Below are positions 55,431 to 63,018 of a stretch of 64,000 bases of DNA, piece by piece. The notes under the pieces were generated by a model. That model saw nothing but the letters and a program-made list of their open reading frames with translations. It searched no databases and was not told the DNA's origin. The translations under genes and the position numbers were made by a program. The stretch is from Streptomyces noursei ATCC 11455. Its GTDB lineage: Bacteria > Actinomycetota > Actinomycetes > Streptomycetales > Streptomycetaceae. Each line of letters opens with the position of its first letter. Position 1 is the first letter of the stretch. The stretch is from positions 5,456,001-5,520,000 of the forward strand of contig NZ_CP011533.1 of the NCBI RefSeq assembly GCF_001704275.1, read 5' to 3'.

Positions 55431-58400
55431 TCAGCCGGGGAGCGTGCGGGCGGCCAGGTCGCGCCAGTCGGCCCGGGTGCCTTCCTGTGTCGCCTCGGTG
55501 AACCGGGCGGCGCCGAGGTGGTGCCGTGCGGCCTGTTCGATGCGGGCCACGTCCGGTTGGGAGCGGTCCGGCAGGCCGCGCACGCGGGCGCTCGCCGCGA
55601 GCAGCCGCGCGGCCTGCTCGTACTGCTCGTCGCGCAGCGCCAGATCCGCGGTTCCGACGAGCGCCCGGGCGATCAGGGGGGCGTGCCCCGCCTCGGACGC
55701 CGCCCGAAAGGCCGCGATGCGGTGTGTGCGGGCCTCGTCGTGGTCCGTGGCGAGGTAGCCGAGGAGGTCCTGGAGTATCGCGCGGACGATCGCGCGCCCG
55801 GCGTCGTCGCCCAACAGCGCCGTCGCGAGGTCGAGTTGGCGGTGCGCCTGCGCGGCGTCGCCGTTCCAGCGTGCGAGCTCCGCCTGCGCCAGGGCCAGCT
55901 CGGCCAGCACGTTCGGCCAGGCGGCGCGTTCCGCGTACCGCTGCGCCTCGGCCATCGCGGCCGCGCTCGACTCCGCATCGCCCAACAGCCAGTACAACTG
56001 GGCCTGCAGCGACCGCATCCGTACGGCGTCCTCGATGGCACCGACCTCGGTGACGACCGCGACGGCCTGTTCGTAGTGCGCGCACGCGCCGGCGAAATCG
56101 CCGCGGACGGCGAGGCGTTCCGCCAGCTCGGTGCGGGCGAACGCGATTCCCCACCGCTCGCCGAGCGCGCGGAACTCGGTGAGCGCGGCCTCCAGATGGG
56201 CGTCGGCGTCCCGGCCGGCGTGCCCGAGCATGATCCGCGTCTTGCCGAGGTGCAGCCGGGCCATCGCGCACACCCAGGGGTCCTCGTGGGCGAGCAGCGG
56301 TTCGAGCGCCGGCAGGAACGCGTCCGGCGCGTGCAGCATGCGTTCCAGGGGGACGACGAACTCCAGCGCCGGGTGCCGGCTCCGCACCCCCCGGCTGATC
56401 GCGTAGGCCCGGTGGATCCACTCGGCCGCGCGGTACTGGTCGCCCTGCTGCCCGGAGGTCACGAACTGCACGACGAAGGCGTACACCAGGGCCCGGGTCT
56501 CGGCGGGCACCTCGCCGGGCAGCGCGACCGCCGCCATGATCAGCTCGTTGCCCTCGGCCTTGTGCCCGCCGAGCCACCAGTACCAGCCGGCGGCGGCGGC
56601 GAGCCGCATCGCCCCGTCCGCGTCGCCGGCCGCGAGCGCACCGCGCATCGCGGCGCCGATGTTGTCGTGCTCGGCGGTGAGCACGGCGAGCCATTCCAAC
56701 TGGCCGGCGCGGCGCAGGTGCGGCTCCGCGGCGGCGGCGAGTTCGGTGAAGCACGCGAGGTGCGCACGGCGGGTCGGCTCCGCTTCCCCCGCCTCCGCGA
56801 GGCGCTGCTCGGCGTACTCCTTGACCGTGCCGAGCATCCGGTAGCGCGGTGCCCGGTCGCCCTCGGCGAGCACCAGGGACTTCTCGGTCAGGGCGGTCAG
56901 CAGATCGAGCACCTGACCCGTCCCGACGGCGCCGCCCGCGCAGACCCGCTCGGCCGCTTCCAGGCTCGCGCCGCCGGAGAACACCGAGAGTCTGCGCAGC
57001 ACCGTCCGTTCGGCGTCGGTGAGCAGTTCCCAGCTCCAGTCGATCACCGCGCGCAGTGTCCGGTGCCGTGGCAGCGCGGTGCGGCTGCCGCCGGTCAGCA
57101 GGCGGAACCGGTCGTCGAGCCGATGGGCGAGCTGGTCGAGGGAGAGGGTGCGCGACCGGGCCGCGGCGAGTTCGATCGCCAGCGGCATGCCGTCCAGCGC
57201 CCGGCAGATGCGCGCCATGGTCGACAGGGTGCGGGCGTCCGCCACGAGGTCCTTGCGCACCGCGCCGGCCCGGCTCCGCAGCAGCCGGACGGCCGGGGAG
57301 GACGCGATCTCGTCGGGGTCGGCGTCCTCGGCGGGGAGGGCCAACGGCGCGACCGGCCACAGTGCCTCGCCGATGATGCCGAGGGGTTCCCGGCTCGTCG
57401 CGAGGATCCGCAGCCGCCGGCACTCCCCGAGCATCCGGTGGGCGAACGCCGCCGCGGACTCGATCACGTGCTCGCAGTTGTCCAGGATCAGCAACATCGC
57501 CCGGTCGCGGACCGCGGCGACGGCCCGGTCCGTGGGCTCCGCGTCCGACGGCGCCTCACCGAGCAGCGCGTCCCGCAGGCCGAGCGCGGCGAGCGTCGCA
57601 TGCGCCACGTCGCCGTCCGCGCCGACGGCCGCGAGTTCCACCAGCCAGGCCCCGTCCGGCAGGTCGTCGAGCAGGGTGCGCGCGGTCTCCGTGGCGAGTC
57701 TGGTCTTTCCCGAGCCGCCCGGCCCGATCAGGGTGGTGAGCCGGTGCTCGGCGGTGAGTTCGCGGACCGCGGCGACATCGGCGTCCTTGCCGACGAAGCT
57801 GGTCAGCTCGGCGCGCACGTTGGTCCTGCGGTGCTCCGACGGGCGGCCCAACTCGCCCCGCAGCAGCGCGACATGGACGGCGGACAGCTCCGGGGAGGGG
57901 TCGACGCCGAGCGTGTTGGCCAGGTTTTCCCTGGTGCGCTGGTACACGAGCAGCGCCTCGGTGTCGCGACCGGTCGCGACGAGGGCCCGCATCAACGCGG
58001 CGACCAGCCGTTCCCGGACCGGGTGCGCGGCCACCAGGTCGGTCAGTTCCGTGACCAGGTCCCCGCCGCGGCCGAGGCCGATCTCCGCGTCGAACCGATC
58101 CTCCATGGCCGTCAGGCGCATCCCGTCGAGCCGGGTGACGGCCGCGTCGAACGCCGCGCTGTCCCGCAGACCGACGTCCTGCAGGGCCGCACCGCGCCAC
58201 AGTGCGAGGGCCTCGCGCAGCCGCCGCGGATCGTCGTCGTCGCGGGCCCGGCCGACGAGGCGTTCGAACCGCACGGCGTCGACGGCGTCGGGTGCCACCG
58301 TCAGCCGGTAGCCGTTCGGCTGCCCCTCGACGGACTTCTCCGGCAGTACCTTCCGCAGCCGGGAAACCAGGCGCTGCAAGGCATTTGTCGCGTCGGCGGG

Positions 58401-58565
58401 CGGGTGCTCACCCCAGATCCAGTCGATGAGCGTCGCCTTCGGGACGAGGTGGCCTGCTTCGAGCGCGAGGGCGATCAGCAGTCCGCGCAGCCGGGCGCCG
58501 GGCACGTCGGTGAGGACGCCGTCCGCCGTGCGCACCTCGAATGGCCCCAGTATCCCGATCTGCAC
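55431..58565 (-). CDS. Large SARP-family regulator (AfsR-like, wHTH-BTAD-NB-ARC-TPR)
   Basis: A 1044-residue activator. VQIGILGPFEVRTADGVLTDVPGARLRGLLIALALE opens an OmpR-type winged helix (1-92). The BTAD helices follow (98-240: FERLVGRARDDDD ... LVAALMRALVATGRDTEALLVYQRTRENLANTLGVDPSPEL). Next is a STAND ATPase with Walker A GPGGSGKT at 281-288, LLILDNCEHV (Walker B) and LATSREPL, then TPR-like helical repeats to the end. SARPs bind 11-bp spaced heptamer repeats, and exactly such repeats lie in the divergent P450 promoter. GTG 58565 was chosen at the family start, though no clear ribosome site precedes it. Confidence 0.92.
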   Translation of the reverse strand: MQIGILGPFEVRTADGVLTDVPGARLRGLLIALALEAGHLVPKATLIDWIWGEHPPADATNALQRLVSRLRKVLPEKSVEGQPNGYRLTVAPDAVDAVRFERLVGRARDDDDPRRLREALALWRGAALQDVGLRDSAAFDAAVTRLDGMRLTAMEDRFDAEIGLGRGGDLVTELTDLVAAHPVRERLVAALMRALVATGRDTEALLVYQRTRENLANTLGVDPSPELSAVHVALLRGELGRPSEHRRTNVRAELTSFVGKDADVAAVRELTAEHRLTTLIGPGGSGKTRLATETARTLLDDLPDGAWLVELAAVGADGDVAHATLAALGLRDALLGEAPSDAEPTDRAVAAVRDRAMLLILDNCEHVIESAAAFAHRMLGECRRLRILATSREPLGIIGEALWPVAPLALPAEDADPDEIASSPAVRLLRSRAGAVRKDLVADARTLSTMARICRALDGMPLAIELAAARSRTLSLDQLAHRLDDRFRLLTGGSRTALPRHRTLRAVIDWSWELLTDAERTVLRRLSVFSGGASLEAAERVCAGGAVGTGQVLDLLTALTEKSLVLAEGDRAPRYRMLGTVKEYAEQRLAEAGEAEPTRRAHLACFTELAAAAEPHLRRAGQLEWLAVLTAEHDNIGAAMRGALAAGDADGAMRLAAAAGWYWWLGGHKAEGNELIMAAVALPGEVPAETRALVYAFVVQFVTSGQQGDQYRAAEWIHRAYAISRGVRSRHPALEFVVPLERMLHAPDAFLPALEPLLAHEDPWVCAMARLHLGKTRIMLGHAGRDADAHLEAALTEFRALGERWGIAFARTELAERLAVRGDFAGACAHYEQAVAVVTEVGAIEDAVRMRSLQAQLYWLLGDAESSAAAMAEAQRYAERAAWPNVLAELALAQAELARWNGDAAQAHRQLDLATALLGDDAGRAIVRAILQDLLGYLATDHDEARTHRIAAFRAASEAGHAPLIARALVGTADLALRDEQYEQAARLLAASARVRGLPDRSQPDVARIEQAARHHLGAARFTEATQEGTRADWRDLAARTLPG

Positions 58566-58704
58566 CCGGCTGATTTTGCCATGGGCGAGGGGCGCGACCC
58601 CGGCGGTTCGACGCGGCGGAGACGGTTGCCGGGCAAGGGTTTTCGGGACGCCGGCCCGGGGCACGATCCGCTGCCGGGAGACGGGCCGTCACCGGGCGCG
58701 GTCG

Positions 58705-58780: not shown

Positions 58781-60007
58781 ATGAGCGAAACGGTTCGCAT
58801 CCCGCACGGCCTCCCCACGGAGCGCGATGCGGGCCCCTTCGACCCGCCCCGCGACCTCACCCGGCTGCGCGAGGGCCGCCCGGTCAGTCCCCTGGTCTTC
58901 CCCGACGGCCACGAGGGCTGGCTCGTCACCGGCTACGACGCGGTGCGCCAGCTCATGGCCGACACCCGCTTCAGCTCCCGCCAGGACATCGGTGTGCTGC
59001 ACCTGCCGTACGAGACCCCCGGCATGCCCGCCATGACCGAACCGTCCCCGCAGGTGCCGGGCCTGTTCGTCGCCATGGACCCGCCGGACCACACCCGGCT
59101 GCGGCGCAAGCTCACCGGCGCCTTCACCGTCCGGCGCATGAAGCAACTCGAAGCGCACATCGGCGACATCGTCGAGCGCCAGCTGGACGAGATGGCGCGG
59201 CTCGCCCCGCCGGTCGACCTGGTCAAGGAGTTCGCGCTGCCGGTGCCCTCGCTGGTGATCTGCGAACTGCTCGGCGTCCCCTACGAGGACCGGGAGACCT
59301 TCCAGGCCAACTCCGCCCAGATCCTGGTCAAGGACCAGTCGCTCGAAGAGAAGATGACCGCGTACGACGGGCTGACCAGGTACCTCGCCGAACTGGTCAC
59401 CCGCAAGCGGGCCGAGCCCGGCGAGGACATCCTGTCCGACCTGGCCCGCGACGAGGACCTCGCCGTCGAGGAACTGGTCGGCATCGCCTTCCTGTTGCTG
59501 CTCGCGGGGCACGAGACCACCGCCAACATGCTGGCACTGGGCACCTTCGCGCTCCTGGAGCACCCCGAGCAGCTGGCCGCACTGCGCGCCGACCCGGAAC
59601 TGCTGCCGGACGCCGTCGAGGAACTCCTGCGCCACCTGTCCGTCGCCGACATCTTCTACCGCTACGCCACGGAGGACATCGAGCTCGCCGGCGAGACCAT
59701 CGGCAGGGGATCGACCGTCGTCGTCGCGCTGTCGGCCGCCAACCGCGACCCCCGGCGCTTCGACGACCCCGACACCCTGGACGTCCACCGCAGGGCCCGC
59801 GGTCATCTGTCCTTCGGGCACGGCGTCCACCAGTGCCTCGGCCAGCAGCTGGCCCGGGTCGAGATGCGTGCCGGGTTCGGCGGACTGCTGCGCCGCTTCC
59901 CGACCCTCGAACTCGCCGTCCCCGCCGGCGAGGTGAGACTTCGGACCGACATGAGCATCTACGGCGTCCACGCGCTGCCGGTCACCTGGACGAAGACGGC
60001 CCGGTAG
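58781..60007 (+). CDS. Cytochrome P450 (actinobacterial class I)
   Basis: A 408-residue haem monooxygenase; ATG 58781 follows AAAGGA. PPDHTRLRRKLTGAFTVRRM is the C-helix region, LLLLAGHETTANML the I-helix oxygen-binding motif, EELLRHLS the ExxR K-helix, NRDPRRFDDPDTLDVHR the meander, and FGHGVHQCLGQQLARVE the haem loop with Cys352. The sequence resembles CYP105/CYP107 enzymes that tailor macrolides and other natural products. No ferredoxin gene follows. The SARP box in its promoter suggests it is a dedicated target of the divergent SARP. Confidence 0.93.
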   Translation: MSETVRIPHGLPTERDAGPFDPPRDLTRLREGRPVSPLVFPDGHEGWLVTGYDAVRQLMADTRFSSRQDIGVLHLPYETPGMPAMTEPSPQVPGLFVAMDPPDHTRLRRKLTGAFTVRRMKQLEAHIGDIVERQLDEMARLAPPVDLVKEFALPVPSLVICELLGVPYEDRETFQANSAQILVKDQSLEEKMTAYDGLTRYLAELVTRKRAEPGEDILSDLARDEDLAVEELVGIAFLLLLAGHETTANMLALGTFALLEHPEQLAALRADPELLPDAVEELLRHLSVADIFYRYATEDIELAGETIGRGSTVVVALSAANRDPRRFDDPDTLDVHRRARGHLSFGHGVHQCLGQQLARVEMRAGFGGLLRRFPTLELAVPAGEVRLRTDMSIYGVHALPVTWTKTAR

Positions 60008-60026
60008 AGCCGTCGGCCGCGCGGTG

Positions 60027-60058
60027 AAGCCCCCGCCGGGGACGTCCGGCGGGGGCTT
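60027..60058. terminator. Bidirectional terminator between P450 and glycosyltransferase
   Basis: AAGCCCCCGCCGG, GGACGT, CCGGCGGGGGCTT: a perfect 13-bp stem, 6-base loop, between convergent stops at 60007 and 60088. Confidence 0.93.
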
Positions 60059-60087
60059 GTCCGTGTGCGGTGCGGGTGGGACGAGCG

Positions 60088-61359
60088 TCAGCGCGCGAGG
60101 CGGTCGAGGGCGGCCAGGGCGGCGGTGGGGCCGTCCTCGGCGGCGAGGTGCCGGGCGGCGGCCCGGGCCCGGGTGCGCAGGGCCGGGGTGGTGGTGGCCT
60201 CGGTGAGGGCGGCGGCGAGGCGGGCCACCGCGTCGTCGAGGGAGAGCTTCGTGGCGAGGGCGGGGAAGGGGAGGGCGGCGGTGGCGGCGCCCAGGGCGGC
60301 CAGGCGGGCGGCCCAGAAGGGCTGGTCGGCGGTGAACGGGACCGGGACCGACGGGACGCCGGCGCGCAGCGCCGCGGCGGAGGTGCCGGCGCCGCAGTGG
60401 TGCACGGCGGCGGCGACGCGCGGGAAGAGGAGGGCGTGCGGGACCGCGGCGGGGACGGTGAGGATGTCGTCGCCCGGGGAGTCGGCGGCGGTCAGGGCGG
60501 CGCTGCCGGACAGCAGGACGCCGCGGAGGCCGGCGCGGCGCAGGGCGCGGACGGCGAGGGCGCTCAGGTGCTCGGCGTCGTCGGCGGCCATGCTGCCGAA
60601 GCCGAGGGAGACCGGCGGTGGGCCGGCGTCGAGGAAGTCCTCCAGGGCGGACGGGAGTTGGGCGTCCGGGGCGTGGTGGGGCCACCAGTATCCGGTGACG
60701 TCCAGGCCGGGGCGCCAGTCGGCGGGGCGGGACACCACCAGTTCGCTGAAGCCGTGCAGGACGGGCCAGTCGGCGGCCTCGACGCGGCGGCGGACCGTCG
60801 CCGGGGTGGCCGGCGGCAGGCCCAGCCGGGTGCGCAGGGCGCGGGCGGCGCCGGTGTAGAGGCGGTCGACGACGCGGGCGGAGAAGCGGCCGGCGGTGCG
60901 GTTGCCCCAACCTCCCAGCTGCCGGCCGCCGCTGACGACGGGGGAGAAGGCGCGGGTCGGCGCGGTGGGCACGAGGTAGGCGCCGACGGACGGGATGTCC
61001 AGCGCCTCGGCGAGGTGCCAGCCGAGCGGGGCCGTGGTGGTGGTCAGCAGGAGCAGCTCGGTGTCCGGGGCGACGGCGTCGGCCATGCCGGTGCCGAGCT
61101 GTTCGACGAAGGCGGCGGCGCGGCGCATCAGGGCGCGGCGGCCGGTGGGCGTGCCGGCGGTGGCCGGCTCCCCGGGGCCGGCGGCGCGGGGGTCGGCGGG
61201 GAGGCTGCGGAAGTCCAGGCCGGCGGCGCGGACCAGCGGGGCGTGGCCGTCGTGGGTGGCGAGGGCGACCTGGTGGCCGGCGGCCCGGAGGCGGGCGCCG
61301 AGGCCGGTGTACGGGGCGATGTCGCCGTAGGAGCCGGCGGCGGCGATGAGGATGTTCAT
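60088..61359 (-). CDS. GT1-family (UGT/macrolide-type) glycosyltransferase
   Basis: A 423-residue GT-B enzyme. MNILIAAAGSYGDIAPYTGLGARLRAAGHQVALATHDGHAPLVRAAG is the family N-domain, with His/Asp near the acceptor site. VSLGFGSMAADDAEHLSALAVRAL and VHHCGAGTSAAALRAGVPSVPVPFTADQPFWAARLAALG form the nucleotide-sugar C-domain signature (H-x-G-A-G-T). Relatives glycosylate macrolides (OleD, MGT), antifungal lipids or sterols. It starts 15 bases after the stop of the MerR-TipAS gene, so the two are cotranscribed. Drug inactivation or tailoring is likely. Confidence 0.9.
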   Translation of the reverse strand: MNILIAAAGSYGDIAPYTGLGARLRAAGHQVALATHDGHAPLVRAAGLDFRSLPADPRAAGPGEPATAGTPTGRRALMRRAAAFVEQLGTGMADAVAPDTELLLLTTTTAPLGWHLAEALDIPSVGAYLVPTAPTRAFSPVVSGGRQLGGWGNRTAGRFSARVVDRLYTGAARALRTRLGLPPATPATVRRRVEAADWPVLHGFSELVVSRPADWRPGLDVTGYWWPHHAPDAQLPSALEDFLDAGPPPVSLGFGSMAADDAEHLSALAVRALRRAGLRGVLLSGSAALTAADSPGDDILTVPAAVPHALLFPRVAAAVHHCGAGTSAAALRAGVPSVPVPFTADQPFWAARLAALGAATAALPFPALATKLSLDDAVARLAAALTEATTTPALRTRARAAARHLAAEDGPTAALAALDRLAR

Positions 61360-61374
61360 GGGATCGGCCTCGGG

Positions 61375-62190
61375 TCAGGGGCGGTGGTGCCGGTCGTCCG
61401 GCTCGGTGGTGGGCGCCGGGGGCGACTGGCGGACCGCGTTGGCGTGGACGGCGGTGCGCAGGTACGGGGCGAGGCCCGGCCGCTGTTCGGTGGGCGGGAC
61501 GAGCAGGGCGAAGGCGCGCGGATCGGCGGCGAAGTCGTCGGCGATCCGGCCGTGCATGTCGGTGGGGCAGGGCGTGAACCACCGGGTGAGGTGGCGGCGG
61601 TGCTCCTCGGCGAGGTCCATGGCGCGCTCGCCGTCGGCCGGCTCGCCGGCGTCGAAGGCGGCGGTCAGCCGGGCCCGCCAGTCGGCGGCCTCGGCCATGA
61701 TCTGCGCCCAGTCGTCCTTGGAGTGCGTGGCGGCCCGGGCCATCGAGCGGCGGTAGCCGTCGCTGTCGCGCCACTTGCGGTCCGCGTCGGTGGCGTACGT
61801 CAGGTCGAAGGCGATCTCGCCGAAGACCTCGAAGCGCTCCTGAGGGGTCAGCCGGACGCCGGTCTGCTGGACCTCCATGGCCTGCTCGGCGACCTCGACC
61901 AGGCGCTGCAGCCGGTTGATCTCCTCGGTGAGGCGGCGGTGCCGGGTACGGAGCTGGTCGAGGGCGTTGGCCTGGGGGTCCGCCAGGATCGTGGCGATCT
62001 CGTCGAGCGGGAAACCGAGCTCCCGGTAGAAGAGGATCTGCTGGAGCCGGGCGAGGTCGGCGTCGCTGTAGAGGCGGTAGCCGGCGGGGCTGCGCTCGCC
62101 GGGGCGGAGCAGGCCGGTCCTGTCGTAGTGGTGCAGGGTGCGGACGGTGACCCCGGCGAAGGCGGAGACCTGGCCTACCGGGTATCCCAT
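61375..62190 (-). CDS. MerR-family regulator with TipAS antibiotic-recognition domain
   Basis: A 271-residue TipAL homologue. The MerR part (1-75) is GYPVGQVSAFAGVTVRTLHHYDRTGLLRPGERSPAGYRLYSDADLARLQQILFYRELGF; a coiled dimer helix follows (75-110). The C-terminal domain from about 130 resembles TipAS, which binds thiopeptides such as thiostrepton: EEHRRHLTRWFTPCPTDMHGRIADDFAADPR, with a Cys at the place of the reactive TipAS Cys, and GLAPYLRTAVHANAVRQ. GAAAGG-like GAAAGG lies before ATG 62190. The promoter upstream nearly copies the tipA promoter, so it should be drug-induced and autoactivating, driving the glycosyltransferase. Confidence 0.9.
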   Translation of the reverse strand: MGYPVGQVSAFAGVTVRTLHHYDRTGLLRPGERSPAGYRLYSDADLARLQQILFYRELGFPLDEIATILADPQANALDQLRTRHRRLTEEINRLQRLVEVAEQAMEVQQTGVRLTPQERFEVFGEIAFDLTYATDADRKWRDSDGYRRSMARAATHSKDDWAQIMAEAADWRARLTAAFDAGEPADGERAMDLAEEHRRHLTRWFTPCPTDMHGRIADDFAADPRAFALLVPPTEQRPGLAPYLRTAVHANAVRQSPPAPTTEPDDRHHRP

Positions 62191-62284
62191 GGGAGTGCGC
62201 CTTTCGGTGGTGGCGGGTGCGTGCGAGGACAGGTGGGGCGTGGTGCGCGGCGGACCGGCGCCGGGCGCCGTGTGCCGCAGGTCA

Positions 62285-62315
62285 AGGGTGGGGCCTGACG
62301 TGACGTGAGGGTCAA
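62285..62315 (-). promoter_or_regulatory. tipA-like promoter and MerR operator
   Basis: Read on the complement: TTGACC (62315-62310) as -35, then the 19-base spacer CTCACGTCACGTCAGGCCC, then CACCCT as -10. The operator CCTCACGTCACGTCAGG (62310-62294) differs at one base from the tipA operator as I recall it (CCTCACGTCACGTGAGG), and the 19-base spacer is the hallmark of MerR-activated promoters. Confidence 0.8.
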
Positions 62316-62471
62316 GGGCGGGCGGGCTGCGCGGGCGGTGCGGCGGCGACGGCGATCATGGACGCACGTCGGAATGCGGGCGGCCCCGTTACATTTGTCG
62401 GGAAACAGGTATTCGCTCTTGTGTGCGCATCCTGTACATCCTTGTGCACACAGGGCACATCTGCTGCGCTG

Positions 62472-62488
62472 GGTGCAACCGTTGCACC
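62472..62488. promoter_or_regulatory. Perfect 8-1-8 palindrome, candidate operator
   Basis: GGTGCAAC-C-GTTGCACC lies 45 bases before the lipoprotein start at 62533, at the expected promoter. A second inverted repeat (62420-62452) precedes it. The binding protein is unknown. Confidence 0.6.
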
Positions 62489-62532
62489 TGGTGAGCCAGC
62501 CGTCCGCCCGTCCGCCGCAGCCCGAGGAATCC

Positions 62533-63018
62533 GTGAGAGCAGCGAACACCACCGCCCGAGCCGCCTGGGGCGCCGGTGCCGTGCTGCTCGCGGCGCTGCT
62601 CGCCGTGGTGCTCGGCGCGGTGCTCGGCGGGTGCGGCGGGCCGTCGCCGCTGCTGCGGGACGAGGGCCCGGCGGTCGCGCCGACCACCCGCACCGGGCCG
62701 GTCTACGTGGCGGACACCGTCGGGCGCCCGCTGCAGCGCCCGAGCGCCCTCCCGCTCGGCGACTCCGCGCGGCTGATCGGGCTGCGCTGGGAGTCGTGGG
62801 GCGGCCCGACCGCGGTGGCCGGCGGCAGGCTCGTCGGCGACTGGTGCGCGCCGGAGTGCGTCCGCACGCCCTACCGCGCGAAGGTCACGCTGAGCGGGCT
62901 GCAGCGGCAGGAAGGGTTCGCGTACTACTCCAGCGCCGGTGTGGTCGCGCCCGAGGTGCACGGCGAGAAGGCCGCCGAGCTGGGGCGGGTGAGCCTGCAC
63001 CTTCCCGACGTCCCGTAG
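62533..63018 (+). CDS. Putative lipoprotein, partner of the downstream sensor kinase
   Basis: A 161-residue exported protein. GTG 62533 has GAGGA four bases upstream; GTG 62491 would add 14 residues. WGAGAVLLAALLAVVLGAVLGGCGGPSP is a lipoprotein signal with the Cys near residue 35. The mature part contains LRWESWGGPTAVAGGRLVGDWCAPECVRTPYRAKVTLSGL, with two Cys that may pair, and looks like a small beta-rich domain. The family is not recognised. The kinase gene follows after 96 bases. Lipoprotein-kinase pairs such as CseA-CseC sense envelope stress, which gives a working idea only. Confidence 0.65.
   Translation: MRAANTTARAAWGAGAVLLAALLAVVLGAVLGGCGGPSPLLRDEGPAVAPTTRTGPVYVADTVGRPLQRPSALPLGDSARLIGLRWESWGGPTAVAGGRLVGDWCAPECVRTPYRAKVTLSGLQRQEGFAYYSSAGVVAPEVHGEKAAELGRVSLHLPDVP

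Follow-up and report, generated by a model that had tools for sequence, protein, structure and literature searches.

The window analysed here, a stretch of 64,000 nucleotides from the 9.8-Mb chromosome of Streptomyces noursei ATCC 11455, carries on its minus strand a regulator gene of the MerR-TipAS type and, 15 nt 3' of it, a gene for a glycosyltransferase (GT), at the very positions which the preliminary description had given them. The regulator gene is the sole TipAS match in the host genome, and the nearest named relative of the locus is that of S. noursei A-2-1, where the GT is 95% identical. The two genes and the structure behind them are the following:

61375 to 62190, minus strand: MerR-TipAS regulator of the TipA class, 271 aa (domain matches and matches to solved structures)
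60088 to 61359, minus strand: GT1-type glycosyltransferase, 423 aa, with a GSxGD motif that includes Asp13 (domain, sequence and fold)
60022 to 60063, no strand assigned: G+C-rich hairpin separating the GT gene from the convergent P450 gene (inverted repeat of 18 nt, 89% complementary)

Because of the 15-nt gap and of the conserved linkage described below, both genes are probably cotranscribed. The hairpin, which has no T run and was not called a terminator by the scan, is a possible shared terminator of the GT and P450 genes; a simple scan of positions 59950-62600, suited to promoters with spacers other than 19 nt, returned no promoter- or terminator-like sites.

The regulator shows the domain order of the TipA class, a MerR DNA-binding domain (MerR_1, PF13411, 64.5 bits against a cut-off of 21.6, E 9.6e-18) followed by a TipAS domain (PF07739, 89.5 bits against 23.8, E 2.7e-25), and its closest solved structures are those of S. 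lividans TipA (2vz4, 2mbz, 1ny9). Searches of PADLOC and PHROGs gave matches confined to the MerR part of the sensor and none for the GT. A further trait of the class, the promoter with a 19-nt spacer and a CCTnACGTnACGTnAGG-like operator, is also present at the MerR-TipAS gene:

62310 to 62315, minus strand: -35 hexamer TTGACC (the same hexamer in 45/45 GT-linked loci)
62294 to 62310, minus strand: operator CCTCACGTCACGTCAGG, inside the 19-nt spacer, sharing its first base with the end of the -35 (a single mismatch to the tipA operator)
62285 to 62290, minus strand: -10 hexamer CACCCT (nANNNT at spacer 19 in 45/45 GT-linked loci)
62191 to 62284, minus strand: leader from the -10 to the ATG, with GAAAGG before the start codon (sequence)

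The TTGACC box, the 19-base spacer and the close resemblance to the tipA operator had all been pointed out beforehand and stand, the layout being kept in all 45 GT-linked loci, where a -10 of this form stands at none of the other spacers between 14 and 23 nt. When set against the tipA promoter DNA of a published assay, TTGCACCTCACGTCACGTGAGGAGGC (as given in the available text of PMC7762955), the predicted operator has one mismatch in the 17-mer; when the comparison is extended to 22 bases so as to take in the -35, three mismatches are counted to tipA, two to skgA and six to mta. The exact 17-mer of S. noursei occurs in 8/45 GT-linked loci, its own included, and in 2/16 tipA-like loci that are not linked to a GT. 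The latter (L094-L110 minus L103; 15 from the same genus and one from another family) all have TTGCAC as their -35, and their spacer is likewise of 19 nt. The S. noursei leader, of about 94 nt, can be called long, since 28/45 GT-linked loci have only 22-25 nt between -10 and ATG; a structured leader RNA was considered and rejected, its folding being no better than that of shuffled sequences (z 0.75).

At the level of the whole 9.8-Mb genome, the pattern CCTNACGTNACGTNAGG is found exactly at one place, the operon, and at three more with one mismatch, as compared with one in the reversed control. The promoter pattern of the GT-linked clade likewise has its only exact match at the operon, and a regulon extending beyond it finds no support, as the places with up to three mismatches (21+21) are matched by those of the reversed control (22+21). 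After the operon itself, the clade pattern is best matched, with one mismatch, at C1:1057387-1057408 (minus strand; around position 1500 of L116), immediately 5' of another MerR-like gene (L116 736-1485, minus strand). Among the matches with two or three mismatches there also appeared the motif nTGAGCCTTTTCCAnCCTCAGG, whose numerous copies lie for the most part toward the ends of the chromosome (C1:9438225-9621668 and others), a repeat family without relation to the operon.

The distribution of the pair was followed in 246 Streptomyces genomes, the best candidates per genome being scored. Among the matches listed, 58 regulators share 67-100% identity with that of S. noursei (one of them partial) and many others about 55% or less, and GT matches at E <= 1e-100 comprise 54 with at least 60% identity and 27 with 50-55%. 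All 54 GT orthologs have a sensor of the first group upstream on the same strand; none of the 27 paralogs has one. Conversely, GT sequence follows downstream of every one of the 58 sensor-clade genes, 54 being listed matches, two cut by contig ends and two broken. In the named collection the regulator is present at 35/79 GT loci; in the stretches examined, the sensor gene is absent near the GT relatives L037 (57%) and L038 (61%) and the fragment L047 (68%), and no regulator lies beside the more distant GT relatives of the collection.

In a tree of 63 rows, which does not include L112 (it lacks the internal start), L025 or the second L023 copy, the 44 rows of GT-linked regulators group as a single clade (support 100/100). 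The distances of TipAS and GT are correlated over 41 loci (r 0.456, with 0/2000 permutations as high), a value which shared species history alone could yield. L023 (Streptomyces sp. CBMA156) carries two copies of the sensor-GT pair within a stretch of 8 kb, equal in score, which reflect either a recent duplication or an assembly artefact.

Two neighbours of the S. noursei pair are an AfsR-like SARP regulator (55431-58664, minus strand, 1077 aa) and a P450 (58727-60007, plus strand), whose best match is pentalenolactone synthase, under the cut-off of that family. Both recur at 1/35 named operon loci (L005), a histidine kinase at 4/35, and the remaining flank genes differ from locus to locus. 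As the P450 and SARP recur so rarely, the sensor-GT pair is regarded as a unit of its own, and its membership of a SARP/P450 gene group was rejected as a general feature. The pair is confirmed as a conserved Streptomyces module.

Within the sensor gene, three sites deserve separate mention:

61861 to 61863, minus strand: Thr codon ACC where TipA has Met110, the internal start of TipAS (alignment)
61567 to 61569, minus strand: Cys208 codon, equivalent of TipA Cys207 and Cys of WFTPCPTDMH (Cys in 46/46 GT-linked rows)
61546 to 61548, minus strand: Arg215 codon, aligned with TipA Cys214 (Arg in 46/46 GT-linked rows)

In S. lividans, according to the accessible part of PMC7762955, tipA gives rise both to a full-length activator and to a predominant short TipAS, made from a second start, which binds and sequesters thiopeptides. 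New with respect to the preliminary description is that this internal start is absent from all 45 GT-linked loci, S. noursei included, a Thr codon standing at the Met110 position, whereas it is present in all 17 unlinked loci (L094-L110, that is, the 16 tipA-like loci and L103), as ATG, or GTG in L103, behind GGAGG. On the tree (with the start-less L112 left out) one state change suffices for the loss. A class-wide set was also considered, made up of the best-scoring 30 TipAS loci of those found in 78/148 genomes of the class and sharing a few genes with the first set of loci. Here start and GGAGG are kept in 22/30, and three of the other eight have truncated or split frames; 5/27 complete genes therefore lack the Met110 start (two of them with an ATG at most two codons away and a Shine-Dalgarno-like match), so that its loss is not tied to the GT alone, a GT link for these five not being shown. 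In the actinomycete genomes L158 and L160 a short frame is followed by a separate downstream frame that starts like a TipAS domain, which looks like separate coding of sensor and trap, although assembly or frame errors are possible. The lost trap start, together with the GT pairing, suggests from sequence a switch from soaking up the drug to modifying it chemically.

The lid or switch residues of TipA named in the 2020 paper (PMC7762955, available portion) are Ile112, Phe123, Phe126, Tyr131, Val135 and Trp139. In the alignment of GT-linked regulators, whose 46 rows stand for 45 loci with one counted twice, Phe123 and Tyr131 are kept in 46/46 rows and Trp139 in 44/46, while Ile112 is changed to Val in 45/46, Val135 to Ala in 44/46 and Phe126 to Ile or Val in 46/46. 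Moreover, several pocket-side positions differ between the GT-linked and unlinked clades. Such differences, fixed clade-wide, suggest a sensor pocket that may have been retuned.

The reading which we prefer, with a probability of roughly 0.55, is that of a self-amplifying, stand-alone drug-response operon whose output would have changed from a stoichiometric trap to a catalytic enzyme. The model for TipA is that ligand binding relieves autoinhibition and increases promoter binding (PMC7762955, in its available text), and both the autoinhibition and its release by ligand are carried over here from the TipA literature. Accordingly to that model the full-length regulator would be kept inactive by its own TipAS domain until a small molecule entered the TipAS pocket and freed the DNA-binding domain; the regulator dimer would then activate the 19-nt-spacer promoter, and sensor and co-transcribed GT would both rise. 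The GT would add a sugar to the inducer or to a related compound, lowering its toxicity and bringing induction to an end. Where the classical tipA output is the short TipAS, a stoichiometric trap, the GT-linked clade has lost the start codon and would deploy a catalytic enzyme instead. Comparison of the loci supplies the gene content of the scheme, the strictness of the linkage, the conserved promoter and lid residues, the lost internal start and the fold class of the GT; the class of the inducer, its identity with the GT acceptor and the detoxification, like the cotranscription, are what we infer. A more specific form, which we hold as tentative and somewhat short of an even chance, would combine the exchange of stoichiometric for catalytic output with a retuned pocket (Arg 214, Asp 218, Phe 226), a ligand other than a classical thiopeptide, modification of that same ligand and a self-limiting detoxification loop. 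As regards the drug-inducible unit proposed in the preliminary description, its TipA-class sensor, its TipA-class promoter and its tight two-gene arrangement are found across many Streptomyces, but its macrolide-inactivating enzyme is not retained.

This last point follows from the scores of the GT against curated families, which are 51.3 bits for MGT (TIGR01426, cut-off 260) and 19.3 bits for the OleI family (NF000362, cut-off 700). The fold search does not favour the macrolide type either: its first OleI match is the 20th and its first OleD match the 31st, after the sterol GT and GtfA/B/D. Identification as the rifamycin-inactivating Rgt was likewise rejected (NF000354, 132.3 bits against 800). 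The best solved relatives, by sequence as well as by predicted fold (mean pLDDT 93.1), are the yeast sterol glucosyltransferase UGT51 and the GtfA, GtfB and GtfD enzymes of glycopeptides (vancomycin type), with identities in the fold search of 26-30%, and residues G12, D13, H320, H321 and D345 are invariant among 39 aligned relatives. The GSxGD motif and the closest sequences and predicted folds among solved structures would place the enzyme in the sterol-GT/GtfB-like branch of GT1. The genome holds a separate Rgt-like glycosyltransferase (C1:8153452-8154672; 501.8 bits to NF000354, under the cut-off of 800). Furthermore, the surroundings of a GT relative of 51% identity without sensor (L036 2401-6239) include a gene of the erythromycin-esterase family and a piece of an ABC-ATPase, and no common theme emerged from the neighbours of some sensor-less GT relatives (erythromycin-esterase-like, ABC-ATPase piece, EamA, FUSC, beta-galactosidase and others).

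Given that UGT51 and the biosynthetic GtfA/B/D act on sterols and glycopeptides, the sensor could instead respond to a metabolite that is endogenous or lipid-like, and the GT could serve in tailoring or homeostasis, with a sterol- or terpenoid-like acceptor, no drug being detoxified. The pentalenolactone-synthase-like P450 that adjoins the pair in S. noursei fits such a role, but it shares with the SARP the recurrence at a single locus of 35, and those TipA-class sensors whose ligands are known answer to antibiotics (PMC7762955 and PMC6078987, in the portions available). We consider this alternative rather unlikely.

The exchange of trap for enzyme contained in the drug-response reading would lose its meaning if an alternative start codon or proteolysis still yielded the trap isoform and the GT were a simple addition. 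A short form remains conceivable in 6/45 GT-linked genes, where a different in-frame start lies close by and shows a weak Shine-Dalgarno-like match, and the S. noursei gene retains the GGAGG itself and has an in-frame ATG five codons upstream of the Met110 site, with no such match. Against it stands the replacement of the dedicated start by Thr throughout the GT-linked loci, as opposed to its retention in all the unlinked ones, and on balance an undiminished trap is unlikely.

The sensor was originally proposed to belong to a thiopeptide-inducible unit in which the WFTPCPTDMH cysteine captures the ligand covalently and the output is an inactivating GT of the macrolide type. In favour of this are the TipA homology, the operator one base from that of tipA, the preserved lid residues and the equivalent of Cys207, conserved in every row. 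However, of the two TipAS cysteines only that at 207 has its equivalent here; position 214, whose cysteine is probably the one attacked by thiostrepton, is occupied by Arg throughout the GT-linked rows and in the 17 unlinked loci by Gly (8), Cys (7), Ser (1) or Glu (1); the pocket-side differences between clades and the failure of the GT against the MGT, OleI-family and Rgt models also speak against it. In addition, the -35 of the 30 class-wide loci is TTGACC in 17, TTGCAC in eight and TTGCGC in one, with no such site in four; since TTGACC promoters are so common in the class, the likeness of the operator to that of tipA is a class likeness and no pointer to thiostrepton. Thiostrepton as ligand is thereby weakened, the kept Cys207 equivalent still counting for it, and the thiopeptide unit as a whole appears quite improbable.

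Finally, that the GT should have a promoter of its own, its adjacency to the sensor being a regulatory coincidence, is very improbable: in 5/54 genomes the aligned parts are separated by over 100 nt (up to 844 nt, the widest gap, in G088, being about 586 nt by fuller alignment), but they lie within 70 nt in 49/54 and the same-strand linkage has no exception.

If the drug-response operon is as proposed, the GT acceptor may reveal the ligand of the sensor, so that sensing and chemistry could each be used to find the other, and the unit may provide a new inducible promoter and an enzyme for small-molecule glycosylation. The roles and ligands of TipA proteins beyond S. lividans are mostly unreported, according to the available part of PMC7762955. 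No description of a TipA-regulated glycosyltransferase was found in the open-access literature, searched mostly by title and the beginning of the abstract (most subscription papers lying outside that scope), and full-text search of the open literature gave no paper in which TipAS, glycosyltransferase and MerR occur together.

Among antibiotic-inactivating enzymes, OleI, OleD, MGT, Rgt and Ngt-1 are GT-B enzymes too, and a similar output role is proposed for the S. noursei GT, although it falls far below the curated cut-offs for MGT, OleI and Rgt, and its best matches, UGT51 and GtfA/GtfB/GtfD, are distant in sequence. Ngt-1 is a GT that inactivates a broad range of antibiotics, and ngt-1 is reported not to be inducible by novobiocin (PMC13214531, available text). 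On the side of the sensor, SkgA of Caulobacter and Mta of Bacillus belong to the same TipA class, and the accessible portion of PMC7762955 names no glycosyltransferase output for either; the skgA promoter is the closest of the three published ones over 22 bases, while the regulator itself matches SkgA less well than TipA. With tipA of S. lividans the unit has in common the MerR and TipAS domains, the promoter with its 19-nt spacer, 16/17 bases of the operator and the lid residues. The tipA-like loci have TTGCAC, the internal TipAS start and no GT alongside, whereas in the S. noursei unit the -35 is TTGACC, the internal start is missing, position 214 is Arg and the GT gene follows immediately. 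The unit may offer an evolutionary comparison between one-to-one binding of a drug and its catalytic removal.
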